Shown piece by piece: positions 1-39,125 of a stretch of DNA of 64,000 nt. The notes below the pieces were generated by a model. It ran no database searches, was not told where the DNA came from, and worked only from the letters and a program-made list of their open reading frames with translations. This DNA comes from Blautia hansenii DSM 20583 (lineage in GTDB: Bacteria > Bacillota > Clostridia > Lachnospirales > Lachnospiraceae), in the NCBI RefSeq assembly GCF_002222595.2, contig NZ_CP022413.2, positions 256,501 through 320,500 of the forward strand. Reading direction: 5' to 3'. Positions within the stretch are counted from its first letter, which is position 1, and each line of letters begins with the position of its first letter. The position numbers were made by a program, and so were the translations under genes.

Positions 1-702
1 AATAAGATAGGATGTTTAATTGAAAATCCAGCTTTGTATATGGACATGACAGCACGCCAAAATTTGGAGATCCAGCGTACTCAACGGGGAATTCCAGGAA
101 AAAGTAGTATTGATGAAGTTCTGGAAATAATGGATTTAAAGGACGCTGGAAATAAAAGAGTGAAGGCTTTTTCTTTAGGGATGAAACAGCGATTAGGAAT
201 TGCAATTGCATTGCTTGGTCGCCCACAGTTGCTAATTTTAGATGAACCAATAAATGGCTTAGATCCAACCAAAATTATTTATGTGCGAGAAGTCTTAAAG
301 AATATGAATGAAGAAGATGGTACAACGATACTTATATCCAGTCATATTTTGCCAGAGTTACATCAACTTGCAACTGTATATGGATTTATACATCATGGAA
401 AAATGTTACAACAGATCACAGATAAAGAATTAGATGAGAAATGTCGTCGTCATGTTCATATCGAAGTAGACAATGTGGAAAAGGCTAGTTGTATTTTAGA
501 TGAGAGGTATCCAGAAAGTCAAATAAAAGTTTATTTAAGAAATGTGATTAAGGTATTTGGTTATAATAAAAATATTTCTGATATAACAAAAGAATTAGTA
601 TATGGAGGAGTTGGTGTAGAAAAAATAGGATATGAAGGAGAAGACTTAGAAGAGTATTACACAAATCTATTATCGGAGGTGAAATCGAATGAGACAGCTT
701 AA
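1..702 (+). CDS. ABC transporter ATP-binding protein, LanF/BcrA-type immunity (5' partial)
   Basis: The reading frame is open from base 1 and the visible part is 233 residues. The N-terminal part with the Walker A loop lies upstream of the window. The signature region reads FSLGMKQRLGIA, Walker B reads LLILDEPINGLD, and ILISSH supplies the switch histidine. This is the class of ATPase that pairs with ABC-2 permeases to expel lantibiotics or bacitracin-like peptides from the membrane. It overlaps the permease gene by 14 bp, so the two are translationally coupled. The following precursor/radical SAM genes make self-immunity to the cluster A peptide the most likely role (inference). Confidence 0.85.
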   Translation, partial: NKIGCLIENPALYMDMTARQNLEIQRTQRGIPGKSSIDEVLEIMDLKDAGNKRVKAFSLGMKQRLGIAIALLGRPQLLILDEPINGLDPTKIIYVREVLKNMNEEDGTTILISSHILPELHQLATVYGFIHHGKMLQQITDKELDEKCRRHVHIEVDNVEKASCILDERYPESQIKVYLRNVIKVFGYNKNISDITKELVYGGVGVEKIGYEGEDLEEYYTNLLSEVKSNETA

Positions 703-1498
703 AGCAGAGTACTATAAAATGAAATATTCGCGAGCCTCGAAGTGGGTTTTAGTATTTATGGCATTTATTTTTTTTATACCGTTCGTTGTGGGAAATGATA
801 CATTGTTTATGACTTTTGGTGATTATAGAAATATAGATAGCATTGGTTGGATTTGCTACATAGACGACATGAATAATGTAAAAGCTGCAGAAATCGCAAG
901 ATTTGCATTATCAATTAATTTTTTTTCTTGGATTGGATTAATTGTCTATATTACGACAATGGTATCTGCAGAATTTCATCAAGGAACAATAAGAGCTTCT
1001 GTCGTATATGGGATAAATCGAACCAAATTATTTTTAAGTAAATTACTGGTGATAAATGTTTACTTTTTTATTCTCTATTATATTGTGGAAACTGCATTAG
1101 GCTTAGGATTAGCATGGAAGTATGGTTTTCATTATAAAGGTGAGGAATTTTTGATTTTTATCGGAATGGTTACCTTAAATATGATAGCTATGATTGGAAT
1201 GGAAGCTGTGGCGGTTTTGATTACGGTTTTAGTAAAGAATACAGGAATTGTGGCAGCTTTATCATGTGTATATTTCTTTGCAGGTGCGATTACTTATCCT
1301 ATGGTATATGAGAATTTTCAAAATCAATCAGTGCTTCTTAAAGCATTTTGTGTTATGAACCCGACCACTTATATGTATAATATTTGTGGATATCGGATGA
1401 CAAATGGGATTGTTGTTGGAACTATTATGTATGGTATGGGTGCGTGCCTGGTGGGGATAGTTTTAATGCATTTTGCATTGAAACGTCAAGAACTTTAA
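689..1498 (+). CDS. ABC-2 type permease, peptide immunity
   Basis: This 269-aa protein has about six hydrophobic segments and a short basic N-terminus (MRQLKAEYYKMKYSR), the usual layout of LanE/LanG and BcrB-type permeases. The SD sequence GGAGGTG lies just before the ATG, inside the ATPase gene. It probably forms a membrane dimer energised by the upstream ATPase and exports or shields against the peptide encoded next. Only one permease gene follows the ATPase, so the exporter is either homodimeric or uses another subunit outside the window. The family is clear from topology and context; the specific substrate is inferred. Confidence 0.8.
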   Translation: MRQLKAEYYKMKYSRASKWVLVFMAFIFFIPFVVGNDTLFMTFGDYRNIDSIGWICYIDDMNNVKAAEIARFALSINFFSWIGLIVYITTMVSAEFHQGTIRASVVYGINRTKLFLSKLLVINVYFFILYYIVETALGLGLAWKYGFHYKGEEFLIFIGMVTLNMIAMIGMEAVAVLITVLVKNTGIVAALSCVYFFAGAITYPMVYENFQNQSVLLKAFCVMNPTTYMYNICGYRMTNGIVVGTIMYGMGACLVGIVLMHFALKRQEL

Positions 1499-1504
1499 TT
1501 TGTG

Positions 1505-1531
1505 TTTCAAGTAGCTCTTACTACTTTGAAA
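1505..1531 (+). terminator. Weak hairpin after the immunity permease
   Basis: Arms at 1505-1514 and 1521-1531 pair over 10 bp with one bulged T and a 6-nt loop. The hairpin is followed by an AT-rich run and then the SD of the precursor peptide. It could be a partial terminator or a processing site that separates immunity from peptide expression. There is no strong T-tract. Confidence 0.35.
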
Positions 1532-1561
1532 TAAATAAATATTTTACAGGAGGATATTGCA

Positions 1562-1669
1562 ATGAAGTGGATTAACAAAGCATCAGAGGACAAAAGTACA
1601 AGAATCTGCTGGGTTTACAATGATAAAGGTTGTGGATCTAAAAAGGCTACATGTGTAATTCGTTACTAA
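1562..1669 (+). CDS. Cluster A RiPP precursor peptide (35 aa, three Cys)
   Basis: This small gene has a strong SD (AGGAGG at 1550-1555) and encodes 35 residues starting MKWINKASEDK. The C-terminal part, ICWVYNDKGCGSKKATC, holds Cys at positions 16, 24 and 31, and the peptide ends in VIRY. It is followed by a 19-bp hairpin and then a radical SAM/SPASM gene, the standard precursor-attenuator-maturase layout. The Cys residues may be donors for radical thioether links (sactipeptide or ranthipeptide type), while the Trp/Tyr/Arg residues could instead form C-C links. There is no double-Gly leader. I do not recognise the peptide family; the assignment rests on size, position and partner enzyme. Confidence 0.7.
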   Translation: MKWINKASEDKSTRICWVYNDKGCGSKKATCVIRY

Positions 1670-1687
1670 AGATATTTGTAGTCAGTA

Positions 1688-1728
1688 AAGGAAAATGTGC
1701 TCAGCAATATGCTGGGCACATTTTCCTT
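1688..1728 (+). terminator. Attenuating hairpin between precursor A and its maturase
   Basis: The arms 1688-1706 and 1710-1728 form a 19-bp stem with one G-U pair and a 3-nt loop. The following sequence is only moderately T-rich, so it should be a leaky terminator or RNA-stabilising stem. This would leave the precursor mRNA in excess over the maturase mRNA. The same placement is seen in cluster B. Confidence 0.7.
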
Positions 1729-1778
1729 ATTGCAAAGAACACTGTGAAAACAAGAGATTAAGAAAAGAGGATATAATA

Positions 1779-3029
1779 ATGAAATTATCAAGATACAATA
1801 TAGAGAAAAAAGAAGATAAAAGTTGTTTGATTTATAATACGGTCACATCTGCAATACTGGAATTAGATACTGATTATGAAAAAACATATTATGAAATGAA
1901 AGAAGGGAAAAAATGTTCAAAGCCTGATTTAGAGTCAGCATTATTAGAGGGTGGTATGCTAGTTGAAGATGATAAAGATGAATTTGCAGAATTGCTTATA
2001 AGAAATAAAATAGAAAGGTTTGCGGATTCAAATCTTACATTAACTATTGCCCCAACTATGGCATGTAATTTTTGTTGTCCCTATTGCTATGAAAAAGGGA
2101 GAGAATATATTACTATGTCTGAGGCTGTTCAGGATCAATTAACATCGCAGCTCAAAGAAAAATATCAGCATATACATGAATTAACGGTATCTTGGTATGG
2201 AGGGGAGCCATTATTGGCAATTGAAACTATTGAAAAATTAACCAAAAAGATAAAGTCTGTTTTGCCACTTGGTTGCAAATATAATGCTGATATGGTCACA
2301 AATGGTTATAAATTGACTAGAAGAGTAGCTGAAAAATTAAAAGACATGGACATCCACTATATTCAAGTTACTTTAGATGGTTCAAAACAAGCCCATGATA
2401 GTAGAAGGATTCTCCATAATCATCAGCCTACCTTTGAATATATATTGGACAATATAAGAGAATGTGCGGATATTTTGAATATTTCGATAAGAATTAATGT
2501 TGACAAGACAAATATAAACGAAGCAACAGAAATATTTGATTGGCTAGAAAGATATGGTTTAAAAGGTAGAGTTGGCTATTATTTAGCACCAGTAGATGAT
2601 ATTAATGGAGTATGTAATAATCATATATGTATGGAACGACCACAGTACGCAAAAGAAGAGATTGCGTTTTATAAAGAAGGGATTAAGAGAGGCTTTATGT
2701 ACCAAGGTGTTAAGCCGAGCAATTATGGTGTATGTGGAGCAATTAGCTTAAATTCATTTGTGATAGGTCCAGATGGAGCGTTGTATAAATGTTGGAATGA
2801 TATTGGATATAGTGAACGAAGTATCGGTAATTTGGAAAAAGGAATCAAACTTACAAATAAATTTGTAGAATGGCTTTCCTATGATGTTGTAAAGGATCAA
2901 GAATGTAAAGATTGTTCATTTTTTCCAGTATGTTATGGTGGGTGTGCTGCTTATAAAAATAAGATTTGTTCTTCAGTAAAATGGAATGCAGAAGAGATGT
3001 TGGAGCTGATGAAAGAAATGGCTCAATGA
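1779..3029 (+). CDS. Radical SAM/SPASM peptide maturase, cluster A
   Basis: The protein has 416 aa from the ATG preceded by AAAAGAGG at 1763-1770; an upstream in-frame ATG at 1695 lies inside the hairpin and is rejected. Residues 1-85 resemble a peptide-recognition (RRE-like) N-terminal domain. The 4Fe-4S ligands are Cys96, Cys100 and Cys103 in MACNFCCPYCYE, followed by a GGEP-type motif (WYGGEPLL). A Cys-rich SPASM domain covers roughly residues 340-395 (CKDCSFFPVCYGGC). Such enzymes use SAM radicals to install thioether or C-C crosslinks in small peptides, here most likely the 35-aa peptide upstream. The reaction type cannot be read from sequence. Confidence 0.88.
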   Translation: MKLSRYNIEKKEDKSCLIYNTVTSAILELDTDYEKTYYEMKEGKKCSKPDLESALLEGGMLVEDDKDEFAELLIRNKIERFADSNLTLTIAPTMACNFCCPYCYEKGREYITMSEAVQDQLTSQLKEKYQHIHELTVSWYGGEPLLAIETIEKLTKKIKSVLPLGCKYNADMVTNGYKLTRRVAEKLKDMDIHYIQVTLDGSKQAHDSRRILHNHQPTFEYILDNIRECADILNISIRINVDKTNINEATEIFDWLERYGLKGRVGYYLAPVDDINGVCNNHICMERPQYAKEEIAFYKEGIKRGFMYQGVKPSNYGVCGAISLNSFVIGPDGALYKCWNDIGYSERSIGNLEKGIKLTNKFVEWLSYDVVKDQECKDCSFFPVCYGGCAAYKNKICSSVKWNAEEMLELMKEMAQ

Positions 3030-3048
3030 AATAGCAGGGAGAATTGGA

Positions 3049-4650
3049 ATGATAAAATTTTGCAGTAAATATGTTTTTCAATATAAAATAGAATATGGGA
3101 TATATTTTTTGTTGGGTATTATACTGTGCGGGTTAAATACATTTATACCGGCTGCTATGGGACAATTTATTAATATGTTTAATGTGGAAACAACATATTC
3201 AGCAATGTTAAAATTCATATTTTTATTACTGTTATTGTATGTTGCTAAGGAAATTGTCTGCTATGTCAATAAAATACTTTATATAAGGATACAGACTAAT
3301 GCAGCATTTTCATTAAATTTCGAAATTGTAAATCATTTAAAAAAAATTTCGCCACTCGTAATTGGCAGAACTGATTTATCGTACTTATCTCAAAGAATAA
3401 ACAATGATGCGAATGATGTACTTATTTTTTTCATCAGCTCCTTGACTGAATTGATATTTTCAGTTTTTTCAGCGGGTATAATCTTATTTATGATTTGGAA
3501 AATGGATTCGATTGCTTTTATAGTTACAATGTTTTTATTAGCACTTTATTTTTTTATATATATTGGCTTCAAAAAGCGTATTTATAATTGCAGTTATGGA
3601 ATGAAAGAGGAGAAATCCAATTTCTTCTCCAGACTGCAGGAACAATTAGAAAAAATAGAGTTTATAAAAATACACAGTATGGATTCATTTTTTTCAAATA
3701 GGTTAGTAGCATCATATCAAAAATTATATCGATCTATATTTAAACAACAAGCGACTATCCAGGCATTTGCAAATCTTGAAGGGATTGTAGGGGCAATATC
3801 TGTATGCATTTTACTTTGGATTGGAGGAAAAAAGATACTTACTGGAGATATGCAAATAGGATATTTCTATATGATTTCAGTATATTTTAATATGATTTTG
3901 GAATATGGAAAAGAAATAGTGGCATACGGTCAAGAATACCAAGAGGCTTATGTATCCTTTGAACGTATAAAATCTATTTTAGAAATTAAGGAACAGTCTA
4001 AGGGGTGTATAAGACTTAATGAAATCAAACAAATTAGAATTCAGGATTTGAATTTTGCATATGACCAGAAAGAAACCATAAAAAGTTTTTCTACAAACTT
4101 AAAAAAGGGGAAAGTTTATGGATTGAAAGGAGAAAACGGATGTGGGAAAAGTACACTTATTAAAATTTTAATGGGTATGTATGTAGATGAATATCAAGGG
4201 AATATAATATGGAACGATACAGAAATGAGAAATTTAGATATGGATTATATAAGAGAACATGTAATCAGTGTAACAGAACAGGAGCCGACTTTAATAGCAG
4301 ATACAATATATAATAATATTGCTTTATATCGAAAGCTTGATGTAAAATGTATACAGAGAGCCGTTGATTGCTTTGGTGATAGTATTTTGAAAAGAGATAA
4401 TTGGGATTTGCAAATTAATGAAAAGTCAAGTAATATTTCCGGTGGAGAAAAGCAAAAAATTGCAATTATTCGCCAAGTAGTGCAAGACGGTCAGGTAATG
4501 ATTTTTGATGAGCCTACCTCAGCTATGGATGAGAGTGGAAAAAAACAATTTTTACAGTTGATTGATCAAATTAAAAATCATAAAATAATTATCATTGTTT
4601 CACATGATAATGCAATCTTGAATACATGTGATGAGATTCTAATATTATAA
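3049..4650 (+). CDS. ABC exporter (TMD-NBD fusion), cluster A
   Basis: This 533-aa half-transporter has about six membrane segments in residues 1-300 and an ATPase domain with Walker A GENGCGKSTL (about residues 358-367), signature ISGGEKQK, Walker B VMIFDEPTSAMD and IIIVSHD. It has no N-terminal C39 peptidase, so it would export a peptide whose leader is removed elsewhere or kept. It starts 19 bp after the maturase and ends just before the kinase gene, so it belongs to the same operon. The cluster A peptide is the probable substrate. It could also serve cluster C, which has no exporter of its own. Confidence 0.85.
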   Translation: MIKFCSKYVFQYKIEYGIYFLLGIILCGLNTFIPAAMGQFINMFNVETTYSAMLKFIFLLLLLYVAKEIVCYVNKILYIRIQTNAAFSLNFEIVNHLKKISPLVIGRTDLSYLSQRINNDANDVLIFFISSLTELIFSVFSAGIILFMIWKMDSIAFIVTMFLLALYFFIYIGFKKRIYNCSYGMKEEKSNFFSRLQEQLEKIEFIKIHSMDSFFSNRLVASYQKLYRSIFKQQATIQAFANLEGIVGAISVCILLWIGGKKILTGDMQIGYFYMISVYFNMILEYGKEIVAYGQEYQEAYVSFERIKSILEIKEQSKGCIRLNEIKQIRIQDLNFAYDQKETIKSFSTNLKKGKVYGLKGENGCGKSTLIKILMGMYVDEYQGNIIWNDTEMRNLDMDYIREHVISVTEQEPTLIADTIYNNIALYRKLDVKCIQRAVDCFGDSILKRDNWDLQINEKSSNISGGEKQKIAIIRQVVQDGQVMIFDEPTSAMDESGKKQFLQLIDQIKNHKIIIIVSHDNAILNTCDEILIL

Positions 4651-4663
4651 GGAGATATGAAGT

Positions 4664-5545
4664 TTGCTAGTTGTCTTTTTAATAACAGGAGTGTTTATAT
4701 TATTAGGCATATTATACATTTTTCATCTGAAGAAGGAAATTAGAAGAATTATAGAATGGATAGAACATAATGAGTATATCTACTCGGTCAATGTATTTGA
4801 TAAAGATATTGAGAACCTTGCACTTAGTATCAACAAGCGAATTAAAGAAGATGAACGAAAAGAACATCAGCTAAAAAAACAGGATAAAAATTTTAAAAAG
4901 ATGGTGGCAAATTTATCACACGATTTACGTACTCCATTAACTGTTATTATTGGTTACTTGCAGTTAATTAGATTAGAAAAAAATGTGAATGAACCTGTTA
5001 ATAGCTATATAGAACATATTGAAAAAAAGGCGGATTATTTAAAAAAATTAGTAGACGATTTATATTTATTGTTTTGGAGTGAAGCAATAGAGAGCGAAGT
5101 TGATATGAAATCAATCAATATTACAGAGGTAGTCACTTCTTTGTTAAAGGAATATATTCAAAATTCAAAACGTGCTTCAGAACAATTAGATATTAGACTG
5201 CCACATGGAAACATTTGGATACTTGCTCAAGAGAAAATATTAACTAGAATTTTGTGTAATTTAATAGATAATGCTTTAAAGTATAGTACTGGTGATATAA
5301 TGTTTTACATGTGGGGGGAATCCGAGTATTGTCATATACAAATAAGCAATCCTTCTGATTATATTAGTGATGAAGAATTAAAATCTATATTTGATTTGTT
5401 TTACACAAAAGATGAAGCAAGGACAAAAAGCAGTGGTATCGGATTGTATGCTACTAGAAAGCTAGTAATACAAATAAGTGGTGATATTCAAGTGAATTAT
5501 GAAGCGGGAATTTTCACTGTCAGTATAAAGTTGCCCTTAATATGA
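4664..5545 (+). CDS. Sensor histidine kinase, short LanK/BceS-like
   Basis: The start is TTG at 4664 with GGAG at 4651-4654; the ATG at 4657 is out of frame and closes quickly. The 293-aa protein has one N-terminal membrane helix, then the phosphoacceptor motif NLSHDLRTPLT (His near residue 86), N-box LIDNALKYS and G-box SSGIGLYATRKL. The lack of a large extracellular sensor domain is typical of kinases that sense peptide antibiotics through a transporter. No response regulator gene is present in the visible part of cluster A, so the partner is presumably upstream of the window. Confidence 0.85.
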   Translation: MLVVFLITGVFILLGILYIFHLKKEIRRIIEWIEHNEYIYSVNVFDKDIENLALSINKRIKEDERKEHQLKKQDKNFKKMVANLSHDLRTPLTVIIGYLQLIRLEKNVNEPVNSYIEHIEKKADYLKKLVDDLYLLFWSEAIESEVDMKSINITEVVTSLLKEYIQNSKRASEQLDIRLPHGNIWILAQEKILTRILCNLIDNALKYSTGDIMFYMWGESEYCHIQISNPSDYISDEELKSIFDLFYTKDEARTKSSGIGLYATRKLVIQISGDIQVNYEAGIFTVSIKLPLI

Positions 5546-5764
5546 AAAAATTGGTCACAGTAGAAAAATAAAAGATATTGTTACTGTATTTTGAAACCCT
5601 GAAAGTGGAAGCACTGTCCATTTTTTGAAGAGTCTTCTGGAATACAATAGATTATTATTCCCTGCGATTGCTGTTATGCTGTCATCCTTGAGACAGAATA
5701 CGTGGTAGTTCGGAGTGGTTTTTGTCATTTCACTGGGACGGCAGAAGGAAAACTTATAAAGCAT

Positions 5765-5805
5765 AATAGAAGTGGGTGTGTGAAAGTGGCATACCCACTT
5801 CTATT
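5765..5805. terminator. Bidirectional terminator between cluster A and the ICE operon
   Basis: A 13-bp perfect stem (5765-5777 with 5793-5805) lies between convergent gene sets, with T-rich sequence on both sides. The 280-bp gap 5546-5822 holds no other convincing gene; the minus-strand open frame at 5555-5764 has no SD and no recognisable domain. Confidence 0.65.
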
Positions 5806-5822
5806 GTATTTAGAGAAGAAAT

Positions 5823-6266
5823 CTAAGAGTTCTTCGGGGAAACATCTTCATTTAGGGATGATAATTCCTCATAAGCAAGTAAATCTGGAGTAACCTTTTC
5901 TTCACCCGAAAGGTTTGACACATTCCGGAAATATAGGCGATAATAATGTCCAGATAAAAGGCGGATATTTTTATCGAATGTAAAGTGATATTCTTTCTGG
6001 TCAGTGGACCGGAAAATAATTTTCTGTTTCTTGGTAAGTGGGCTGACTTCACGTTTTGTACAGGTTCCAGTTAATTCGGTATAGTCATGCATCTTGATGG
6101 TATGCAGCAGACTCACAATTCGTATGACAGTTCCGACACCGATGCAAAGACTCATAAGGAGAAATATCTGGTCGTCTGTTACAAATCCGTAAATACATCC
6201 AAATAGGACACAGAAAAAGCCGATTGCCCCATGGACAATCAGCTTATTAAGAAATGGTTTTGGCAT
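5823..6266 (-). CDS. Small membrane-anchored protein of the ICE operon, unknown
   Basis: The protein has 147 aa, starting at ATG 6266 with a GGAAGGAG ribosome-binding site; upstream extension into the next gene is rejected. Two hydrophobic helices occupy about residues 10-55. They are followed by a soluble, beta-rich region with charged residues, ending in a short acidic tail. It is the last gene of the minus-strand transfer operon. I do not recognise the family. The two-helix plus beta-rich layout suggests a cell-envelope accessory of the transfer machinery. Confidence 0.6.
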   Translation of the reverse strand: MPKPFLNKLIVHGAIGFFCVLFGCIYGFVTDDQIFLLMSLCIGVGTVIRIVSLLHTIKMHDYTELTGTCTKREVSPLTKKQKIIFRSTDQKEYHFTFDKNIRLLSGHYYRLYFRNVSNLSGEEKVTPDLLAYEELSSLNEDVSPKNS

Positions 6267-6279
6267 AATTTGCTCCTTC

Positions 6280-6966
6280 CTATAATTTTTCAAATGCAAT
6301 CTGTTTATTGAGGTACAAATTACTGATAGCTTCCAGTACAGGATAACCGGCATGGGTGAATTGGATATCCTGTGCCAGGGTACGGAATGTTGCATCCGAG
6401 GTTTCATAGAGCTGCGTCAAAAGTTGCTCTGTATTTTGTGGATGGATGCCCTGTTCTACACAGGTTACAAGCTCTGCCGTAGAAATCTGTACTTTTTTTG
6501 CTATTTGGAGTACCGTGTCCTCTATAGCAGTCCGTGCCGGCTTTTTTAGATAATGGATCAGTTCCTTTGTGTGCAGTTTTTTCTTCATGCAGAGATAGAT
6601 GCAGGTAAAAAGCCGTACTGAAAAACTGTCCTGCAATGGGCTGATATAAAGTTCTCCTAAGAGGCGGTACAGGGCATCCACACCAGTTAAACCATCCCCT
6701 TTTACAACCAGTCCTCGAAGCAGCAGCCGATTCAGGTAGGGTTCAATGGGAATATTTTCCGAACGGTGATGTTTTTTCAAACGTTCCGAAAAGGCAGACT
6801 GCAATTCATGGATCTGTCGGATTTGAAATGCGAGGCTGCTCCACAGAAAGAATTCTTCTTCTGTCAGTCCGTATTCCTGCCGGTTATTGATAACTGTCGG
6901 TGTTTTATGTTCCTTTATGGAATCCTGGAATCGTAGGATTCCGACTGCAGTATAAAGTGTCAGCAT
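6280..6966 (-). CDS. ICE operon protein of unknown function
   Basis: The protein has 228 aa from the ATG at 6966, preceded by AAGGGAGAA. It is soluble and rich in Leu, Gln and His, with mostly helical character and no membrane segment. A stretch near residues 140-175 (LHTKELIHYLKKPA onward) looks like a helix-turn-helix or helical bundle. It lies directly downstream of the sigma-like gene and 13 bp before the next gene, so it is co-transcribed with both. No family is recognised. A regulatory or cytoplasmic accessory role is only an inference from position. Confidence 0.55.
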   Translation of the reverse strand: MLTLYTAVGILRFQDSIKEHKTPTVINNRQEYGLTEEEFFLWSSLAFQIRQIHELQSAFSERLKKHHRSENIPIEPYLNRLLLRGLVVKGDGLTGVDALYRLLGELYISPLQDSFSVRLFTCIYLCMKKKLHTKELIHYLKKPARTAIEDTVLQIAKKVQISTAELVTCVEQGIHPQNTEQLLTQLYETSDATFRTLAQDIQFTHAGYPVLEAISNLYLNKQIAFEKL

Positions 6967-6979
6967 AATCGTTCTCCCT

Positions 6980-7549
6980 TCAAGATAAAAGAGTATATAA
7001 TTTGGTATCCTGCTGTAAGTATTTCCGGGCTTTGCTTTGCCATGCCCGGACATGATTCATTGGGACACCATAATGTTTGGAAATTTCTTGGTTGGTATAT
7101 CCTTTTTGCTGCAGGAGCAGGGCATGTATTCCTTTTCTTAGTGTATTGCAGCTTCCCGCTTCTAAGGACTGCAGGTGCTTATAAATGGGTTCCTGGTTCA
7201 TACATTGTTCCTGCCACAGTTCTGTTTTTTGGTCTACAAGCAGGGGTTCCATGTCAAATTCAGAAGATGCATACATGGAACAGGTGTATTTTCGTTCTTT
7301 TTGCAGTTTTCTCCAATAACTGTAAATGGCATTTCGTATGGCAACTCTGGCGTAAACTGCAAAGGGACGGGTGTTGTCATAGTTCATGGCGGCTTTGCAT
7401 AAAGCTAAGTTTCCGGCTTGCAGAAGGTCTTGCTGCTCATCGTATGAGACATAAGCACAACGGGTAGTCAATTTTTTTACCATTTCAGGTACCAAATACA
7501 AGTACTCCTCTGTCAATCGGCGTTCATCATCTGTCATCGGGATGATCAT
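6980..7549 (-). CDS. Sigma-70-like factor of the ICE
   Basis: I chose ATG 7549 because a strong GGGGGG SD lies 5-10 bp before it; the upstream TTG at 7567 overlaps that SD. The 189-aa protein starts with a region 2-like segment (QQDLLQAGNLALCKAAMNYD, then FAVYARVAIRNAIYSYWR), which corresponds to core-binding and -10 recognition. It ends with a helix-turn-helix (GYTNQEISKHYGVPMNHVRAW), equivalent to region 4. It probably directs transcription of transfer genes or acts as a dedicated regulator. Gene position inside the transfer operon suggests positive feedback. Confidence 0.72.
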   Translation of the reverse strand: MIIPMTDDERRLTEEYLYLVPEMVKKLTTRCAYVSYDEQQDLLQAGNLALCKAAMNYDNTRPFAVYARVAIRNAIYSYWRKLQKERKYTCSMYASSEFDMEPLLVDQKTELWQEQCMNQEPIYKHLQSLEAGSCNTLRKGIHALLLQQKGYTNQEISKHYGVPMNHVRAWQSKARKYLQQDTKLYTLLS

Positions 7550-7563
7550 ACATATCCCCCCTT

Positions 7564-7974: not shown

Positions 7975-8097
7975 AAAGATTCACCTCGCTTACGTGTTTT
8001 ATACGTATATTGTAAGAAAGCAGGTGATGAATTCCCATAGGATGGGCATAGAAACTACTCCCAGATTCGGACTAAATGGCACAAAATGGCAGAAAAT

Positions 8098-8367: not shown

Positions 8368-8420
8368 AAAATCGCCTCCTTTCTTATCCTGTACGCAGAA
8401 AGTGCCAAAAGTGCAACCTT

Positions 8421-29184: not shown

Positions 29185-29209
29185 AAATATGATCTCCTTT
29201 CAAATTGTG

Positions 29210-31216: not shown

Positions 31217-32312
31217 TGAAAAACCTCCTTTTAAACTTTTGAAAATCAATGCTGGAGAAATGTATATCTGCAGTTAGGTATTTTTTCAGGCAGGGAAGCT
31301 GAAAGTCAAAGCAAATCAGGTTCCCGGATAGCCCATATACATTTAATCCAGTATTGAAGCGGTTGATACGCTGCATGTCAAAATCATACGCAAGCAAAAT
31401 AGGGTTTTCCTGGCTGTCTATTCCATCATGTTCAATTGGCAGATCCTCACGCTGGGGAAAACAGTCGGACAGTAGTAACTGATTAAGCTGCATCATACGC
31501 TGGGGTTGTACCAATAAACGGAGCAGGTATTCTCCGTAGCTGTTATTGGGCAGGAAATAGAAGTGTTCATACGCAGTATCCAGCATGAACAGTGTTTTTT
31601 TGTATCCCCCGGTACTGGTAAGGAGACGGAAAGCCATATCCATATCACTGCCGGTCATGATGGCATAAACGGTAGGCGGGCCATGGTAAGGAAGTCCTTG
31701 AAGATAGTGCTGCAAAAAAGCATTGAGTCGGACTTCCGTTTTGTATTCCCATTTTAGAAGTGTATTTCCGGTATTATAAACAGCATAGACACAGTGAGGA
31801 GCCATCAGGATTCCCATACTACGGGAATTTTTGATTTTAGTAGTGGATGCTCCAAGATTTTTTATTTCCCTAGAAGAGTAAAACAGAGGTAGGCTTCGCA
31901 TAGGAAACGTAGCCGCTTCGCCGGATTCAGAAAAAAGCAGGGGCTTTTCATCTGGAAAGAATGGGATTCCAGCATGGGAAAGCGTCAAATAGGTTTCTGC
32001 TTTTTGATGAAGTCGCAGCCGTCTTGGTAATTCGCTACGTATGAGGTTGGTTTCTGCATTTCCGGTTAAATAGTTTTGAAAACGACAGGAATTTTGCGAA
32101 AGCAGCAGTTCTTTTGCCCGTTTGGTAAGGCGATAACCTCGTAGGCCATCTTTATAGTGTGTTCTTATAAGCTTACTCTGCTTTAAATCTGTAACCACCT
32201 TCTCTGCATAGGAATCACTCTCAATCAATCTGTTAAGCTGTCCGGAAGGGAATTCCCCACATAGTCCAACCATTTCCAAAAGCTGATATTTTATAGAATC
32301 GGTTTTTATCAA
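31206..32312 (-). CDS. Winged-helix protein, replication-relaxation-like
   Basis: The protein is 368 aa. Residues 1-70 form a winged helix (YQLLEMVGLCGEFPSGQLNR, then KLIRTHYKDGLRGYRLT). A larger domain follows, with mixed alpha/beta features and several conserved-looking aromatic stretches. The layout recalls Replic_Relax-type plasmid proteins that act in the relaxosome or in replication control. It overlaps virD4, so it likely prepares the DNA substrate. I see no HUH relaxase motif, so it is not the relaxase itself. Confidence 0.55.
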   Translation of the reverse strand: MIKTDSIKYQLLEMVGLCGEFPSGQLNRLIESDSYAEKVVTDLKQSKLIRTHYKDGLRGYRLTKRAKELLLSQNSCRFQNYLTGNAETNLIRSELPRRLRLHQKAETYLTLSHAGIPFFPDEKPLLFSESGEAATFPMRSLPLFYSSREIKNLGASTTKIKNSRSMGILMAPHCVYAVYNTGNTLLKWEYKTEVRLNAFLQHYLQGLPYHGPPTVYAIMTGSDMDMAFRLLTSTGGYKKTLFMLDTAYEHFYFLPNNSYGEYLLRLLVQPQRMMQLNQLLLSDCFPQREDLPIEHDGIDSQENPILLAYDFDMQRINRFNTGLNVYGLSGNLICFDFQLPCLKKYLTADIHFSSIDFQKFKRRFFNEP

Positions 32313-32451
32313 ATAAGCATCACCTCAGTTCGATTTTTACCTATGACAGCCTATACTTGGGTAAAGTAAGGGCGGTATTAAGCATAAAAAATGCAAAGAA
32401 TATGGCTTCTTTGCAGAAAAATTACCTATATCGGAAAAAGAAAGAAAAATA

Positions 32452-33117
32452 TCAGGAAATTTCCGATATGGTTTTGATAGACGATTTTCTATTTTTCAGC
32501 CAGCCAGGAAAGATTTCCGGTTCCATTACAAAGATAACGGTGTGATCGTAATTCCCCAGTTCTGTAGTGTGATAGGAGTCGCAAAAGAGTCCCGTATCAT
32601 CAACCAGAACATAGGAAGCGATAGTATCTAAAATCTGTTTAAACTCCAAATTATCGTAATCACGTATTCGCTGTAAAGAAAGGTTCTGGTCATAAATTTG
32701 ACTGAAACAGACAACACATCTCTTATATAATGGAATGTAGTGTTCGGTTACATAAGTCTGCAAGGCAAGGTTTAATGGCTCATGTAGAAAAGCGGTGTTG
32801 GTTCGCAATTTACGTTTGGGCAGTAGCCCTGGCATGGTAATGGAAAGAACACTATTTGAAAAAAAAATTTTGATTCCCTGCACAGCAGCGGCTTGTTTCA
32901 GATAGTCTGCCTTTCTAGTATCAGTTGTGGTATATACCAGATTTCTGAGCTGACAGGCGATCCTTTCAGAGCGTAGGGCAGCACTGATACTCAGCTCTTC
33001 GTATTTATCTGCATACGCTTGAATATCTGTTGTTTTCAATGCAAAAATAGTGTTGTGAAGTTTCTGGACTTCATCATCAATGCTCTGTAAACGGTTAAAA
33101 ACAGTTTTGGTGTTCAT
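32452..33117 (-). CDS. ICE accessory protein (DUF6100-like), unknown
   Basis: The protein is 221 aa from ATG 33117 (GAGGT just upstream). The N-terminal 60 residues are strongly helical, probably a coiled coil (VFNRLQSIDDEVQKLHN). A mixed region follows. There is no membrane segment. The gene stands between the wHTH gene and the DUF5697-like gene in the coupling operon. The intergenic stretch 32313-32451 contains an AT-rich inverted repeat but no other gene. The DUF assignment is from memory of similar ICE proteins and is tentative. Confidence 0.5.
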   Translation of the reverse strand: MNTKTVFNRLQSIDDEVQKLHNTIFALKTTDIQAYADKYEELSISAALRSERIACQLRNLVYTTTDTRKADYLKQAAAVQGIKIFFSNSVLSITMPGLLPKRKLRTNTAFLHEPLNLALQTYVTEHYIPLYKRCVVCFSQIYDQNLSLQRIRDYDNLEFKQILDTIASYVLVDDTGLFCDSYHTTELGNYDHTVIFVMEPEIFPGWLKNRKSSIKTISEIS

Positions 33118-33124
33118 ACATACC

Positions 33125-33655
33125 TCATTTCTTTGCATAATAGCTGACAGATCCGGTAGTAGAATCCACAAGGCAGAAGGCAATTACACCTTTAATGTGA
33201 AGTTTTGCAGCCTGTTCTTCTTTTTCCAATACAACCAGACGTTTCGCATCGTTCTTTGGCTGGCTTTCCATAACATGGTTGATAAGATATTCCTGTTCCT
33301 GGGGAACATAGAGGACTTCATACCACTCATCTTTAGAGAAAAAGTTCAGTTTTATCGGAAATTCACCGTCAGTATGGTATACAATGGCTTTTTTGAAGTC
33401 CAAAAGCACCCAGAAAGAGGCAATCATGCCATAATCAGGGGTGTTTGCAGACTCTTGACTGTCGCAGAGAATACCATTTTCTTTATCATGGACAATTCGT
33501 TTTTGTTTTACCAGACTGGTAATCAGAGATTTGATAGAATCTCTGTTTTTGGGAAAGAGCCTCAAAACCTGTTCATACTGCAGTGTGTGGTAAGTTGTGA
33601 TGAACCGGAGCAGTTGAGCCCCTTCCCCTTGATAGATTTCATTTCTTGTTTTCAT
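33125..33655 (-). CDS. ICE winged-helix-like protein (DUF5697-like)
   Basis: This 176-aa protein starts with a wHTH-like region (LLRFITTYHTLQYEQVLRLF, then IKSLITSLVKQKRIVH) and continues with a beta-rich domain about 100 residues long. It is the first gene of the 33.66-28.26 kb coupling operon, downstream of the promoter at 33843-33871. DNA binding is likely. Two palindromes in its leader (33697-33708 and 33733-33750) could be its own operators. Confidence 0.55.
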   Translation of the reverse strand: MKTRNEIYQGEGAQLLRFITTYHTLQYEQVLRLFPKNRDSIKSLITSLVKQKRIVHDKENGILCDSQESANTPDYGMIASFWVLLDFKKAIVYHTDGEFPIKLNFFSKDEWYEVLYVPQEQEYLINHVMESQPKNDAKRLVVLEKEEQAAKLHIKGVIAFCLVDSTTGSVSYYAKK

Positions 33656-33842: not shown

Positions 33843-33871
33843 ATTGTAACATGGGTAAAATTACCCTTCAA
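33843..33871 (-). promoter_or_regulatory. Promoter of the 33.7-28.3 kb coupling operon
   Basis: On the minus strand: -35 TTGAAG (33866-33871), 17-bp spacer, -10 TACAAT (33843-33848). The spacer contains GGGTAA/TTACCC arms, a likely operator between the two promoter elements. The counterpart is at 20802-20830. Confidence 0.78.
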
Positions 33872-33971
33872 TCGCAGAAGTGTGCCAAGTTGAGACATAC
33901 TTAGGAAAAAATAAGGAATGTAGAAAACCAATTAGGAAGAAAAAATGTCAATTTATACAAAAAATAAAGAC
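33848..33971. repeat. 124-bp divergent regulatory block, copy 2
   Basis: Ungapped match to 20807-20930. It holds the minus ICE promoter at one end and the conserved plus-strand block (33927-33971) upstream of the lanthipeptide precursor at the other. Confidence 0.85.
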
Positions 33972-34281: not shown

Positions 34282-37200
34282 ATGAAAAAATCTAGTTATT
34301 TATCTGAACGTGTATATAATGTTAACCCGTCTGAAATAAATATGGAATCTTTGGAGTATTGGAAAAAAATACTGAAGGAGGAAGGTTTACAGTATGTAAA
34401 GAAAAACCACCTTGAGTATTTTTTTGGTTTTCTAAACAATTGTTCCTTTAGCAGTCATGAGAAGTGTCAGCACCAGAATTTTGTGGAAATGTCCTCAAAA
34501 AGAGAGACGTGTAGGCATGAGTGTGATGAAATGATTTTTGGAGCGTTTTATGATCCTTTTGTGCAAGTAGCTAATAAACAGCTTAGGGAAACGGTAACTC
34601 AAAAAAGATATATTAAAGAATCAATTTTAGTTGATTTTCAAAAATCCTTATTTAATTTACTTAATAATCTCTGTATAAGAACTTTGATTTATGAAATGTA
34701 TATATGTGGTCAAGAAGGATTGTTAGAGGGAAATGAATTTGAACAATACCAGTATTACATTGACCATTTTCTAAAAGATAAACAATATTTGAATGATTTT
34801 TTTTCACTTTACCCAGTATTGGAAAGAAGGATAAATGAAATCATACAAAATACAATAGATATTTACAAAGAAGTAATAGAACGAATTGATACAGACGCAA
34901 ATGAAATAATGAGAGAATTTAATATTGTTGAAAGCGCTTTTATTGTAGAGCATCTATCGACAGATTTTTCTGATTCTCATAAAAACGGCAGAAGAGTATT
35001 TTGTGTGGAATTTGTATCGGGAGAAAAGATTTTGTATAAACCACGATGTTTGCAAAACGAGATTAAGCTACAAGAAATAACCAATTATTTCTATAAAATA
35101 TGTAATTTGGGAAGTTATGAGTACTGTATTCTTGATAAAGGAAAATATGGCTGGTGTGAGATTGTAACACAAAAAGATTGTGAGTCCACAGAAGAACTTT
35201 CAAGATATTATCAAAGAATAGGAGTTATCTTGTTTATAAACTATCTTTTAGAAGGGGGAGATATTCATTTTGAAAATCTCATTGCATGTAATGAATATCC
35301 GGTAATTATTGACGCAGAGACATTTATAGGAAATATAGAAGGTGATAATGGAAAAAGTGCAACAGAGAAAGTCTCTAATCTTTTAAGAAAATCGGTGTTA
35401 TATTCTGGAATACTGCCTTTTTATTCTTGGAATAATGCTGGAGATGCAGGAATTAATATGAGTGCTATTAGTGGAGAAGAGGGACAAAAATTTCCGATAA
35501 AAATTCCATTTATTATTAATCCGAAATCTGTAAATATGAGAGTTGTCTATGATTATCCAGTATCGAAAAGAAATCATAATTTAGCAATGCTGAAAGGAAA
35601 GTTTATCCAACCTTCTGAATTTGCGGATAAAATTATCCAAGGGTTTAAGAGTGCATACTTGGGAGCAATGGAACATACAGAAACGCTATTGAAAATCATA
35701 CAACAATATAGTGAGTTAGAGGTAAGGTATTTGATTAGAAATACACAGCAGTATGTAATTGTGTTGAGTAGTTCATATCATCCTGAATTATTGATGGATG
35801 GAGGTGCACGAAATTTATTTTTCTATTCTCTGATAAACGGAAATTTACAAAATGAAAATAGTAAATTACTTATTGAACATGAGATTGAAGATCTACTAAG
35901 CGGTGATATACCATATTTTTATTTTCGTGGGAATAAAAAAAGCATTTATACTTGGGATGGTAGAGAAGTAAAGAATTTCTTTAGTAAGACTGCTTTGCAG
36001 CAAATTGAGGAAAATATACAGTACTTGTCCTATAAAAATTTGGAACAGCAGATTCAATATATAAAAATTACTTTTAATATGGAGAATGCAGGAACAAGGA
36101 AAATAAAGAATGAAAGGTTAAAACCGGCTCTTTCTAATAATATATTCAAAACGGCAGAAGAATTGGCAAAAGAGTTGCTATGTAAAATAGGAACAAATGC
36201 GATTTATAGTGAAGATGGGACAGATGTTAACTGGATTGGTGTAAAGTTATTTGGAATAAAAGAAAATCAGTGGATGATCCAGGCACTACCGAATACATTA
36301 TATGATGGCACGGTTGGGATTAATTTGGTATTTCATTTGTACGAAAGGATATATCAAGATAAGAAATATCATGAAATTTGTGATGTGTTAGATAATCGTA
36401 TATTGCGGTATATAGATACTATAAGTGACGGAAAAAAGAGTATTGCAGAATTTAACACAGGAGTTTTTTGTGGTGAGGGTTCGATTCTATATGCATTAAA
36501 TATTTTATATGAAATATATGATGATTCTAAGTATAAGTTATATTTTGACAAATGGCTAAGCTGCATGGAAACAATTATCTCAGAAGATTGTCTGTTCGAT
36601 TTGATTTCGGGGAATTCCGGGATAGTATTGGTTCTAATTAATATGTATAAAAAAACAGGAACGCCTACTTATCTACAAAAAGCTATACAAATAGCAGAAC
36701 AATTAATTGAGGATATGGTTACTGATAAAGGGAAAGTCGGTTGGAAATCAGAGGTGGTTCCTGAAGTATTGGCAGGTTTTGCACATGGAAACAGTGGCTT
36801 TATAGAAATGTTTTCAAGATTATATGAGGTATATCCACAGGCGAAATATTTGAGAGTACTTTCTAGGTTAGTAGAATATGAAAATTCTTTATACTCAGAA
36901 AAGAATAATAATTGGACAGATTTAAGAAAATTTCCAGAGGAAGATCAGAATAGAGATCAGCCAATAGCGTGGTGTCATGGAGCAGCGGGTATCCTGCTAT
37001 CCAGATTAACCTTATACAATGCCATAAAAAATTCAGGGGAAACTGCATTGTTTCAGCAAGTTATTAAAGACATAAGCCTTGCTAAAAATAAATTAATTGA
37101 AGATGGGTTACATGCAGGTTTTTGCCTATGCCATGGAAACATGGGAAATTTGTTGATTTTAAAAAGATATGCAGAAATTTTTGATGATAAGCAGGTAAGA

Positions 37201-37392
37201 AGTATTTGTGATTCTCGATTTGAACAGATTCTGGAATTTCTTAATGATCAAAATGTATTACCAACAGAATTATACAATCCAGGTTTTATGACTGGTTTGT
37301 CAGGAATTGCATATGCTTTATTAAAATATACGATGCCAGAATTGCCATTGATTATAGGAGTTGAGGGAATAGATGATAGAAATAAAGATTAG
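34282..37392 (+). CDS. lanM: Class II lanthipeptide synthetase
   Basis: The protein is 1036 aa, full length for LanM. The dehydratase half has the kinase-like motif GGDIHFENL followed by VIIDAETF (about residues 325-350). The cyclase half has the zinc ligands His835 in GFAHGNSG, Cys898 in AWCHGAAG, and Cys950-His951 in LCHGNMGN. It phosphorylates and eliminates Ser/Thr in the precursor and then closes thioether rings. SD is AGGAAA just before ATG 34282. It overlaps the next gene by 20 bp. All expected catalytic landmarks are present. Confidence 0.95.
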   Translation: MKKSSYLSERVYNVNPSEINMESLEYWKKILKEEGLQYVKKNHLEYFFGFLNNCSFSSHEKCQHQNFVEMSSKRETCRHECDEMIFGAFYDPFVQVANKQLRETVTQKRYIKESILVDFQKSLFNLLNNLCIRTLIYEMYICGQEGLLEGNEFEQYQYYIDHFLKDKQYLNDFFSLYPVLERRINEIIQNTIDIYKEVIERIDTDANEIMREFNIVESAFIVEHLSTDFSDSHKNGRRVFCVEFVSGEKILYKPRCLQNEIKLQEITNYFYKICNLGSYEYCILDKGKYGWCEIVTQKDCESTEELSRYYQRIGVILFINYLLEGGDIHFENLIACNEYPVIIDAETFIGNIEGDNGKSATEKVSNLLRKSVLYSGILPFYSWNNAGDAGINMSAISGEEGQKFPIKIPFIINPKSVNMRVVYDYPVSKRNHNLAMLKGKFIQPSEFADKIIQGFKSAYLGAMEHTETLLKIIQQYSELEVRYLIRNTQQYVIVLSSSYHPELLMDGGARNLFFYSLINGNLQNENSKLLIEHEIEDLLSGDIPYFYFRGNKKSIYTWDGREVKNFFSKTALQQIEENIQYLSYKNLEQQIQYIKITFNMENAGTRKIKNERLKPALSNNIFKTAEELAKELLCKIGTNAIYSEDGTDVNWIGVKLFGIKENQWMIQALPNTLYDGTVGINLVFHLYERIYQDKKYHEICDVLDNRILRYIDTISDGKKSIAEFNTGVFCGEGSILYALNILYEIYDDSKYKLYFDKWLSCMETIISEDCLFDLISGNSGIVLVLINMYKKTGTPTYLQKAIQIAEQLIEDMVTDKGKVGWKSEVVPEVLAGFAHGNSGFIEMFSRLYEVYPQAKYLRVLSRLVEYENSLYSEKNNNWTDLRKFPEEDQNRDQPIAWCHGAAGILLSRLTLYNAIKNSGETALFQQVIKDISLAKNKLIEDGLHAGFCLCHGNMGNLLILKRYAEIFDDKQVRSICDSRFEQILEFLNDQNVLPTELYNPGFMTGLSGIAYALLKYTMPELPLIIGVEGIDDRNKD

Positions 37393-37906
37393 TAAAAATG
37401 ACAAAGAAGATAAGTTGTTCCGCATAAATTCGAAAGACATAGTTGGGTTTTATAATTGTAATATTAAACAAGAGCGCAAGATAACAGACATTATAAAATG
37501 TTATGGAAAAACAAAAAGAATAAGAGAGATTGAACTGAAAAACGTGAAGCCGGAGGATAATGTTACAGTATTTCAATATATATATAGAAATGTAGGTTCA
37601 ATTATAAACAAAGATTATGTGATTGAAGGGTTTTTAAGATTAGGGGAGTTGTTCGATTGTAAAGATGAAGTGGTTAGAGGATTGGATAGAAGTAAGAGAT
37701 ACTGTTTAGAAATATTAGTGGCGTTTCTTCAAGAAGCAGACATTATTATTTTGCATGAAATGTTTGAAAATGTTTGGAATCATACTATAGAGGAAGTTTT
37801 AATTGAATTTTCGTTAAGAGGGGCAGTAGTTGTGTTTTCGGAACATAGAGAAGAATCATTAATGAAATTGCCAATGCACAGTTACAATCTAAATGAAATA
37901 TGTTAG
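37373..37906 (+). CDS. Degenerate ABC-ATPase-like protein (no Walker A)
   Basis: The 177-aa protein has the size order of a LanF-type ATPase but with the catalytic parts lost. Where GPNGAGKTT is expected it reads YNCNIKQERKI. The signature helix is LDRSKRYCLEILVAFL instead of LSGGMKQRLGIA. Walker B is ADIIILHEMF with His for the catalytic Asp. An AVVVFSEHRE strand mimics the switch region. The frame is intact and overlaps lanM by 20 bp, so it is translated. It might be a pseudo-ATPase subunit, an immunity or sensing protein, or decaying immunity gene. The family link is inferred from spacing of fold elements. Confidence 0.6.
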   Translation: MIEIKISKNDKEDKLFRINSKDIVGFYNCNIKQERKITDIIKCYGKTKRIREIELKNVKPEDNVTVFQYIYRNVGSIINKDYVIEGFLRLGELFDCKDEVVRGLDRSKRYCLEILVAFLQEADIIILHEMFENVWNHTIEEVLIEFSLRGAVVVFSEHREESLMKLPMHSYNLNEIC

Positions 37907-38354
37907 AGGAGAGAATAAATGAGAAAACTTTAATTTTTATTTATCTCAAGCGTAAAATAAATGAGAATAGTAGTCAAACCAGAGTTCCGGTATTCGAAAA
38001 TCATATTTTGTGCTTGACCATTAATACATTTCTATGTAGATATTTGTCGGGGCCTTGCCATATCTACAGTGCGTAGCAGCATTTACTAATATCCTCGTAG
38101 AAATAAAAATTTAGGGTACACAAATTATATCTAAAATGTGATTTCCACATTATCGGACAGGCGATGAAAAGTCATTCGTCTCTGTATTTTGACGTAGCAA
38201 TGCCCATTAAGTTATAGAGTAGAAAAGATTTGGAGAAAGAAGTGTATTTTCTATTTTGATTTTTATTGAAAGTAGAAATTATATTTTATAAATACTCCAG
38301 TTGAAGCAAAAAGGATACAGATTGTATTAAGTAAACGTGACAAAGGAGAAATGT
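37907..38354 (+). other. Gap between pseudo-ATPase and membrane protein
   Basis: The 448 bp are AT-rich and contain no frame longer than about 60 codons. A short start after an AGGAGAG SD (ATG 37920) closes after four codons, which could be the remains of a lost permease gene. No recognisable motif or strong terminator is seen. Confidence 0.4.
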
Positions 38355-39125
38355 ATGAAGGTTGCTTTTATAATATCTTATGCTGTTACTATTATACTTG
38401 CAATAGGTTTTATTTATTGTGTTTATATGAAAAACTACTGGATTTTTAAATTTGTGGATAAAATCAAAAGTCCAGTACAGCAACTCGTTTATGTATTACT
38501 TATGTTCGTATCTTCGTATGTATATGTTTATTTATCACTACAAATAAGGTGTAGATTTAGCGCTGTAATATGTTCAATACTATTACTTATATTAATCTGG
38601 GTTATGGATTACTTTTTTTCTTTCAGTTTTAAAGATAACGATTTATATATAGGTAATAAAAAAAGGTATATTTTTATGGCGTATGTAGGAGCTTGCATAT
38701 CAGGCTTTTTTATTGCATATCGAGATCATTTGGCATTGGCTTTAGAAATTTCAAATATAACAATTAGTGTTTTGATAGGAGCTTATGTACCTTTTACGTT
38801 ATTATTAGATGATGCTACAAATGGAAAAGTAGAATTGCAAAAGGTAAAACAAGGATGGAAGAATAAGTATAATGAAATATTTCACGAACATCGGTTCAAA
38901 TCAATTCTTTCTGATGTTTTTGTAGCCATGGTATATGGCGTTTTATTGGGAGTAGCATTATCTTCTTCGACAAATATAATTAAGGATATTACTTCTGGTA
39001 TGGGAATGGGGGTTATTACTGTGATTATTGCTTGTGTAGGTTTGTTTGAAGTAAAAAAGAAGTTAAGGAGTAGGAAGAAAGAATTAAGAAATATTGAAGA
39101 ACAAGAAAAAAATGATTCGAAATAG
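38355..39125 (+). CDS. Polytopic membrane protein, cluster C
   Basis: The protein is 256 aa from ATG 38355 (AAGGAG seven bases upstream). It has about six hydrophobic helices, a cytoplasmic charged loop around residues 160-185 (GKVELQKVKQGWKNKYNE) and a basic, coiled C-terminal tail (KKKLRSRKKELRNIEEQE). No ABC, transporter or protease motif is visible. It may be a lanthipeptide immunity protein because it lies at the end of the cluster with the same strand and AT-rich composition. It could also be unrelated cargo. Confidence 0.5.
   Translation: MKVAFIISYAVTIILAIGFIYCVYMKNYWIFKFVDKIKSPVQQLVYVLLMFVSSYVYVYLSLQIRCRFSAVICSILLLILIWVMDYFFSFSFKDNDLYIGNKKRYIFMAYVGACISGFFIAYRDHLALALEISNITISVLIGAYVPFTLLLDDATNGKVELQKVKQGWKNKYNEIFHEHRFKSILSDVFVAMVYGVLLGVALSSSTNIIKDITSGMGMGVITVIIACVGLFEVKKKLRSRKKELRNIEEQEKNDSK

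Follow-up and report, generated by a model that had tools for sequence, protein, structure and literature searches.

The window analysed here, 64,000 nucleotides of the Blautia hansenii DSM 20583 genome (G000:C1:256501-320500, from a genome of one contig with 3,065,949 bases), most likely belongs to an integrative element of conjugative type that carries several gene clusters for ribosomally synthesized and post-translationally modified peptides (RiPPs). Positions are given in window coordinates, with negative values lying left of the window, and several gene names were assigned by eye from the letters (Table 1). The element spans -56.4 to 42.9 kb (~99 kb) and is integrated between 28-bp direct repeats that are identical at 27 of 28 positions. 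Its own tyrosine integrase gene occupies the left end (-56377..-55169), preceded by a gene that reads by eye as what we take to be guaA, which the element adjoins. Type IV secretion genes encoding VirB4 and VirD4 are present in the element. An element of this type with three cargo ports is probably the best explanation of the whole.

The element holds four RiPP clusters. A sequence-only reading of the window had recognized three of them on the plus strand, in gaps or at the ends of a minus-strand transfer backbone, and gene content confirms this arrangement. The inventory itself needed correction, as the three clusters stand but cluster 1 starts left of the window with its regulator, and a fourth (cluster 0) lies at -42.6 to -26.9 kb. 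Cluster 0 encodes two LytTR response regulators, a GHKL kinase, five radical SAM proteins, an S8 peptidase and two ABC exporters. The radical SAM protein of cluster 2 scores 348 bits against an NCBIfam PapB cut-off of 340, which suggests a PapB-type ranthipeptide cluster, with thioether cross-links only predicted. Cluster 3 qualifies as a class II lanthipeptide cluster, with a LanM protein scoring 926.9 bits for TIGR03897 (curated cut-off 304) and an adjacent precursor. Neither a LanT exporter with a C39 peptidase, which is usual but not defining, nor a protease gene was seen among the cluster 3 open reading frames (ORFs). As the cluster has no LanT of its own, export via the exporter of another cluster is conceivable as a guess. 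The 177-aa protein encoded beside LanM has, by eye, the look of a degenerate ABC ATPase. Clusters 1, 2 and 3 are AT-rich (G+C of 0.31, 0.29 and 0.31) relative to the minus-strand stretches 5823-20800 and 28255-33840 (0.43 and 0.42), and each is followed by a hairpin (at 5765, 28183 and 39245), both as the earlier reading had it. The six folds of the three hairpin stretches, on either strand, reach -20.6 to -31.1 kcal/mol, as raw energies without a shuffled control. A hairpin related to the one at the right border of port 2 occurs at the same spot in a relative (DSM 29492) next to different cargo.

Table 1. Features of the element in window coordinates; negative positions lie left of the window.
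Feature	Position	Strand	Remarks
attL	-56397..-56370	.	28-bp repeat, pairs with attR
RiPP cluster 0 (fourth)	-42614 to -26880		same element, left of window
Port 1	-1448 to 5798		cluster 1 in DSM 20583, GD8 and MSK.15.26
Cluster 1 OmpR-type response regulator	-1123..-392		left of window; left continuation of the cluster
RiPP cluster 1 (port 1 cargo)	1..5545, continues left	+	ABC ATPase/permease, precursor, radical SAM, ABC exporter, histidine kinase
Cluster 1 3-Cys precursor	1562-1669	+	
Cluster 1 radical SAM	1695-3029	+	
Cluster 1 ABC exporter	3049-4650	+	
Cluster 1 histidine kinase	4664-5545	+	
Bidirectional hairpin	5763..5807	.	right border of port 1; folds -31.1/-20.6 kcal/mol
Transfer operon	5823..20574	-	sigma-like protein, DUF3268, SpaA/TQ/thioester surface protein, VirB4, DUF5038, lysozyme-like/C39 protein, TrbL-like, 126-aa first gene
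Promoter of first transfer operon	20802..20846	-	TGGCAC-N5-TGCGATT, TTTACA-17-TAGAAT, imperfect palindrome in spacer; port 2 left border
Port 2	20847 to 28170		PapB-like cluster in DSM 20583
37-bp RiPP-associated element	20886..20923	+	repeat-like ACCAATTAG-11-GGCATTTTA; upstream of cluster 2
Cluster 2 8-Cys precursor peptide	21004..21162	+	read from sequence
RiPP cluster 2 (port 2 cargo)	21243..28116 (whole cluster 21004-28116)	+	PapB-like radical SAM, S41 peptidase, ABC exporter, ABC ATPase, FtsX permease
Bidirectional hairpin	28182..28227	.	right border of port 2; folds -26.2/-21.0 kcal/mol
Second transfer operon	28255..33655	-	S1-domain protein, VirD4, 368-aa protein, DUF6100, DUF5697
Promoter of second transfer operon	33843..33887	-	TTGAAG-17-TACAAT; port 3 left border
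Port 3	33891 to 40970		LanM in DSM 20583 and MSK.15.26
37-bp RiPP-associated element	33927..33964	+	repeat-like ACCAATTAG-11-GTCAATTTA; upstream of cluster 3
Cluster 3 LanA-like precursor, 57 aa	34054..34227	+	read from sequence
RiPP cluster 3 (port 3 cargo)	34282..39125	+	class II LanM, 177-aa protein, 262-aa protein
Hairpin after cluster 3	39240..39277	.	folds -20.9/-28.5 kcal/mol
Three AT-rich ORFs without Pfam match	39287..40822	-	inside port 3; backbone resumes at 40970
Two-gene backbone (rep) operon with MarR/HTH_36 protein	41000..42750	-	replication-like by position only
attR	42864-42891	.	28-bp repeat, 27/28 identical to attL

Relatives of the element were found in several genomes. VirB4 matches at E <= 1e-50 occur in 10 of 61 genomes, DSM 20583 included. 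A scan for the conserved promoter of the transfer operons returned 30 stretches from the named genome collection, and a scan of 397 family genomes, a sample drawn from the larger family (the genus sample being 20 genomes), gave 10 places in nine genomes, including the two of DSM 20583. Three elements are near-identical, with backbone segments 92.0-99.7% identical to those of DSM 20583 (blastn). They belong to Blautia massiliensis GD8 (G438), B. hansenii MSK.15.26 (G440) and B. caecimuris DSM 29492 (G439), and the right side of port 2 in MSK.15.26 and of port 3 in DSM 29492 is missing at contig ends. Port borders and the comparison with Mediterraneibacter massiliensis used high-scoring segment pairs (HSPs) of at least 120 bp, G446 and one further comparison used at least 150 bp, and gene content was compared by matches covering >35% of the query. 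The order of backbone genes is the same in relatives. Because a single attL/attR pair encloses the backbone pieces and their order is shared, they are parts of one element rather than of different ones.

Clusters 1-3 occupy three ports between leftward operons, as judged against the three near-identical relatives. Among the four Blautia elements, site 1 holds two different cargos, site 2 four and site 3 three. Port 1 of DSM 29492 contains an ECF-type sigma gene, ABC genes, another radical SAM gene and a Cys-rich peptide. Port 2 is filled with two radical SAM genes and Cys-containing peptides in MSK.15.26, with an AbiLi-like ATPase and a metallo-beta-lactamase-like gene in DSM 29492, and in GD8 with 24.8 kb comprising a split radical SAM gene, an M16 peptidase, a second LanM cluster and a duplicate end of the S1 gene. 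The split GD8 gene is interrupted by three adjacent recombinase-like genes (L099:13177-18202), which resemble RIT elements. Port 3 carries a radical SAM cluster in GD8 and three genes with a radical SAM motif in DSM 29492; a domain scan of one of them showed B12-binding and radical SAM domains. Ten of the 12 ports thus hold clear RiPP genes, one is a probable case in which the precursor was not seen, and one is defence-like. Other relatives have empty sites, with ports 1 and 3 of M. massiliensis reduced to ~200 bp and ~32 bp and port 3 of G446 to ~42 bp. The rep operon adjoins the transfer promoter in relatives whose site is empty, and a homologue of its gene o41000 lies within 270 bp of the promoter at six of the 30 named loci. 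The same places are thus empty or differently filled in relatives, as in hotspots of integrative and conjugative elements (ICEs). The proposal of the earlier reading that the element carries exchangeable modules is borne out by this comparison, since the same clusters do not always occupy the same sites. Its restriction to antibiotic-type modules holds in part, as the cargo is mostly RiPP but the ports hold AbiLi-like, Thoeris-like and CBASS-like genes too, and a STAND-like gene below the Pfam cut-off. Wider relatives contribute a Thoeris ThsB-like protein, SMODS and ThiF proteins of the CBASS type, large NTPase-like proteins that match a family weakly or not at all, and others named by eye. 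Cargo is therefore not composed of RiPPs alone. A rule that cargo always lies on the plus strand was discarded, as the AbiLi-like gene is on the minus strand.

Sequence identities differ between cargo and backbone. Cluster 1 is 99.99% identical between GD8 and MSK.15.26 over 7191 bp, and the type IV secretion system (T4SS) segment of the same pair is 98.28% identical. LanM of DSM 20583 and MSK.15.26 shows 87.04% identity next to a VirD4 segment at 97.03%. In the rep segment, GD8 and MSK.15.26 share 98.80% and DSM 20583 is the outlier (92.44-92.50% to either). In the T4SS segment it is not, as the closest pair there is DSM 20583 and GD8 (98.79%), and the transfer operon at 5823..20574 is 98.28-98.79% identical to that of DSM 20583 in the three relatives. 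The decoupled identities indicate that cargo and backbone segments have different histories. Alignments to the three relatives (plus-strand HSPs of >=90% identity and >300 bp) show 11 breaks of at least 300 bp, six of them in ports if an ATPase insert is counted. All five breaks with >2.5 kb of unlike DNA in both elements are within ports. The five breaks elsewhere include a 10.7-kb insert of GD8 at -26310, a 1.75-kb insert of GD8 at 6985 that is transposase-like by eye, and 1.2 kb at -18335 in DSM 29492. The ATPase insert itself (7.2 kb, -9036 to -1805, in the gap of port 1) carries two P-type (cation) ATPase genes, one by Pfam and the other by eye, and is present in DSM 20583 and DSM 29492, with 106 bp in its place in GD8. 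Cargo exchange at the ports is well supported by these comparisons. Each port extends from the terminator of a leftward backbone operon to the promoter of the following one. Because the ports lie between operons, cargo can drop out or be exchanged while the transfer genes stay intact. Clusters were likely swapped through homologous recombination in the conserved flanks of co-resident elements.

The ports might alternatively be merely tolerated gaps, in which case cargo lands anywhere, insertions that break operons are lost, and nothing favours these particular places or RiPPs. We regard this as a serious competitor that falls somewhat short of the port explanation, as port borders coincide with operon ends, five of the 11 breaks fall outside ports and distant relatives carry unrelated cargo, but the position within ports of all five breaks with >2.5 kb of unlike DNA in both elements and the plain counts of RiPP genes in the Blautia elements are at odds with it. 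A dedicated tyrosine recombinase could also load the ports by site-specific recombination. Genes for XerC/D-like tyrosine recombinases do lie at the right end of the cargo beside the rep operon, at site 3 of G008 and in L092/G032, and L066 and L081 end on the right with genes that look similar by eye (a Pfam match was obtained for L092 only). Such enzymes could in principle insert cargo alone, which weighs against exchange through the flanks, as does, for the conjugative nature of the element, the failure of the relaxase family PF03432 to match inside the element and of PF13814 to match anywhere in the genome, with other relaxase families not searched and some element proteins unscanned. Self-transfer is for this reason only putative. 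Loading by a recombinase nevertheless appears improbable, given that no such gene was seen in the ports of DSM 20583 or in either of the two cargos of port 1 that were compared, and no direct repeat that would mark an att site emerged, though no systematic search for one was made. Ports served by exchange between co-resident elements thus remain the preferred explanation.

The left borders of ports 2 and 3 share a 124-bp block pointed out by the earlier reading. Its two copies (20802-20930 and 33843-33971) are 74% identical and are the only strong ones in the genome (E of 3e-68 and 2.3e-16, the next being 0.2). The two copies were thus confirmed, but the block is better split into a conserved minus-strand promoter of the transfer operons and a second, 37-bp element that belongs to the RiPP cargo. 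The promoter has a -35/-10 pair spaced 17 bp and an extended -10. At 25 of the 30 loci, the first gene of either transfer operon begins 165-275 bp downstream, and the other five have at most 497 bp on that side. The exact motif TGGCAC-N(4-6)-TGCGATT occurs seven times in DSM 20583 and the stretches of 10 relatives, always at such promoters. The match to DSM 29492, with non-RiPP cargo in port 2, ends at 20847, one base beyond the outer edge of the promoter, and the matches to GD8 and MSK.15.26 extend to 20925. At the border of port 1, too, a leftward operon has a conserved stretch that looks like a promoter, with different letters. A sigma-54 promoter was rejected for the block, as nine bases separate GG and GC and not the 10 of the consensus. 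An att-like site was rejected as first choice, as the conserved part reads as the transfer-operon promoter at the 25 of 30 loci with room for a gene. A search of the window for known leader RNAs in Rfam gave nothing over gathering scores.

The 37-bp element follows the promoter at ports 2 and 3 in the RiPP cargo of DSM 20583, GD8 and MSK.15.26, and an extra copy precedes cluster 0. All three copies in DSM 20583 (up to three mismatches) stand ahead of a RiPP cluster, namely 0, 2 and 3. Eight whole genomes contain nine places at this threshold (three in DSM 20583, two in GD8, four in MSK.15.26 and none in five others), with none for a reversed-pattern control; the copy in port 2 of GD8, longer by one base, is not counted among the nine. 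Eight of the nine precede clusters with a radical SAM or LanM gene. The layout consists of half-sites arranged 9-11-9, followed at 9-11 bp by the best-fitting weak -35. Published LytTR sites, in the part of the source available, consist of 9-bp repeats with a spacing of mostly 12 bp, in some cases 11 or 13 bp, and lie 4-11 bp above the -35 (PMC6193735), and the element resembles them in spacing and differs in letters. The operon downstream of one copy encodes a receiver-LytTR protein, and the LytTR domains of the two cluster 0 response regulators are recognized by Pfam at E of 2.4e-20 and 4.5e-16. The first of these regulators is 79-100% identical among DSM 20583, GD8 and MSK.15.26, and seven other genomes have at most 32% identity or no match. 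Five of the seven (G439, G008, G442, G019 and G446) were scanned whole and lack the 37-bp element, with G441 and G445 outside the scan. The layout, the copy ahead of the LytTR operon and the co-occurrence of regulator and element make a shared LytTR regulon of clusters 0, 2 and 3 the best reading, at about even odds.

Such a regulon would unite three of the four RiPP clusters, whose chemistries are unrelated. A LytTR response regulator encoded in cluster 0 would bind the 37-bp element in front of its own operon and in front of clusters 2 and 3, with a weak -35 box ~10 bp farther downstream, and turn on all three together. A more far-reaching idea is a mobile, self-regulated peptide arsenal, in which the element's own LytTR system drives any RiPP cluster in a port that has the right 5' element, so that unrelated chemistries are swapped between elements but stay under a common switch. 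A transfer operon starts in the opposite direction from the same stretch between the operons, hence peptide production and conjugation could be coupled. We consider this arsenal a tentative and rather doubtful extension.

Several observations count against the regulatory link. Seven of the nine copies were known before the eight-genome scan, and of the two new ones, that on G440:C20 is the orthologue of the first copy in DSM 20583, and that on G440:C16 lies ahead of small peptides containing Cys and of an ABC transporter, where a modifying enzyme was not seen within 13 kb. Resemblance between the two half-sites is only partial, and the distance to the -35 was fitted within 7-12 bp. A looser pattern, with no match in shuffled sequence, adds three matches with three mismatches that are not ahead of clusters, two of them being one place inside cluster 1. 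The element is absent from cluster 1 and from all three ports of DSM 29492. Among the 397 family genomes, up to two mismatches recover only the three copies of DSM 20583 and one further sequence that occurs twice, near dnaN (by eye). Its two copies (L140 and L141, two genomes of other genera, two mismatches) precede a protein without Pfam match, and the 37-bp element is therefore not strictly tied to RiPPs. Strict RiPP specificity is weakened accordingly, and the protein beside dnaN looks LytTR-like by eye. The element might instead reflect recent shared ancestry of the 5' ends of the cargo, or be a crossover site, and not a regulator site. It adjoins the edge of the port, the expected starting point of exchange tracts, and the GD8 and MSK.15.26 matches run through it, but the ~40 bp that separate it from the promoter differ although the element itself is conserved, the cluster 0 copy is located elsewhere without a transfer promoter, and promoter-like boxes follow at similar distance, so that we find this origin unlikely. 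Going by family knowledge, the peptide products would be antimicrobial. Signals or self-protection factors are an unlikely alternative, given that no activity is known and regulators of this type frequently respond to peptides, but LanM clusters and immunity-type ABC transporters are, as general knowledge, typical of bacteriocins.

Further features of the region touch on transfer and on the evolution of the ports. The 1327-aa surface protein at 8844-12827, within the transfer operon, has thioester, SpaA and T-Q ester domains and is a possible mating adhesin. In the distant relatives G004, G005, G009, G018 and G019:C15, the genes of the two transfer operons are contiguous, without the gap of DSM 20583 and G008, and DSM 20583 and its kin may have split the two operons by a second promoter, creating an extra port. 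An S-adenosylmethionine synthetase-like gene (by eye) lies in the GD8 insert at -26310 (GD8 composite 22083-23273, L097) and another on an MSK.15.26 contig with a RiPP-like locus (L142, G440:C16), and could supply the cosubstrate to radical SAM enzymes. Integrase and mobilisation genes at 43.9-48.3 kb were taken as a candidate right end and rejected once attR was placed at 42.86 kb, so that 43-64 kb is outside the element. The stretch from 42.9 to 70 kb carries its own integrase, NikA-like, AAA and Mob_Pre genes. A weaker third att copy (29 bp, 89.7%, 70075-70103) suggests a second element placed in tandem, which is what this stretch looks like.

Comparable behaviour is found in the SXT/R391 integrative elements, which have a conserved backbone and fixed intergenic hotspots whose cargo differs among members. 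The element described here is like them in its hotspots, but their backbone is Gram-negative and unrelated, and RiPP clusters are not known as their usual cargo. Nisin elements (Tn5276; nisin clusters on ICEs) also move a lantibiotic cluster by a conjugative element, but the available part of the report describes one RiPP cluster each and no swappable set of unrelated RiPP types (PMC12506125). In part of a lanthipeptide survey, a nisin transposon is reported with a phage defence system and class II lanthipeptide genes are over-represented beside defence and mobility genes; the survey is statistical, and exchange ports are not described in that part (PMC12715929). The nisin O region of Blautia, Dorea and Ruminococcus resembles our case as a RiPP cluster that lies, within the same bacterial family, in ~58 kb of shared DNA with TrbL-like and relaxase genes and with integrase or recombinase genes, yet it is nisin-type, a single cluster and not presented as one of several ports in the text available (PMC11811420). 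For regulation, plantaricin PlnC/PlnD of Lactobacillus plantarum offer an in-regulon response regulator, several bacteriocin operons and paired 9-bp repeats upstream of the -35, but, as far as the accessible part goes, with a 12-bp spacer, other repeat letters and one pln locus, unlike clusters of unrelated chemistry at distant places (PMC2714321). LytTR regulatory systems share the repeat length, the 11-13 bp spacing, the distance to the -35 and the autoregulated operon, but are described, in the part seen, as pairing LytTR with a membrane inhibitor, whereas DSM 20583 has receiver-LytTR proteins and a GHKL kinase (PMC6193735). Among the titles and abstract beginnings retrieved from an open-access library, none describes an element with several exchangeable RiPP ports.

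Gut Lachnospiraceae may swap entire pathways for putative peptide antibiotics as interchangeable parts of one transfer element rather than as lone passengers, and relatives show slots both empty and refilled. If the LytTR link is true, the right short upstream element would suffice for a RiPP pathway to join the regulon. The link would then provide a search handle for further RiPPs and a testable connection between antagonism and gene transfer.

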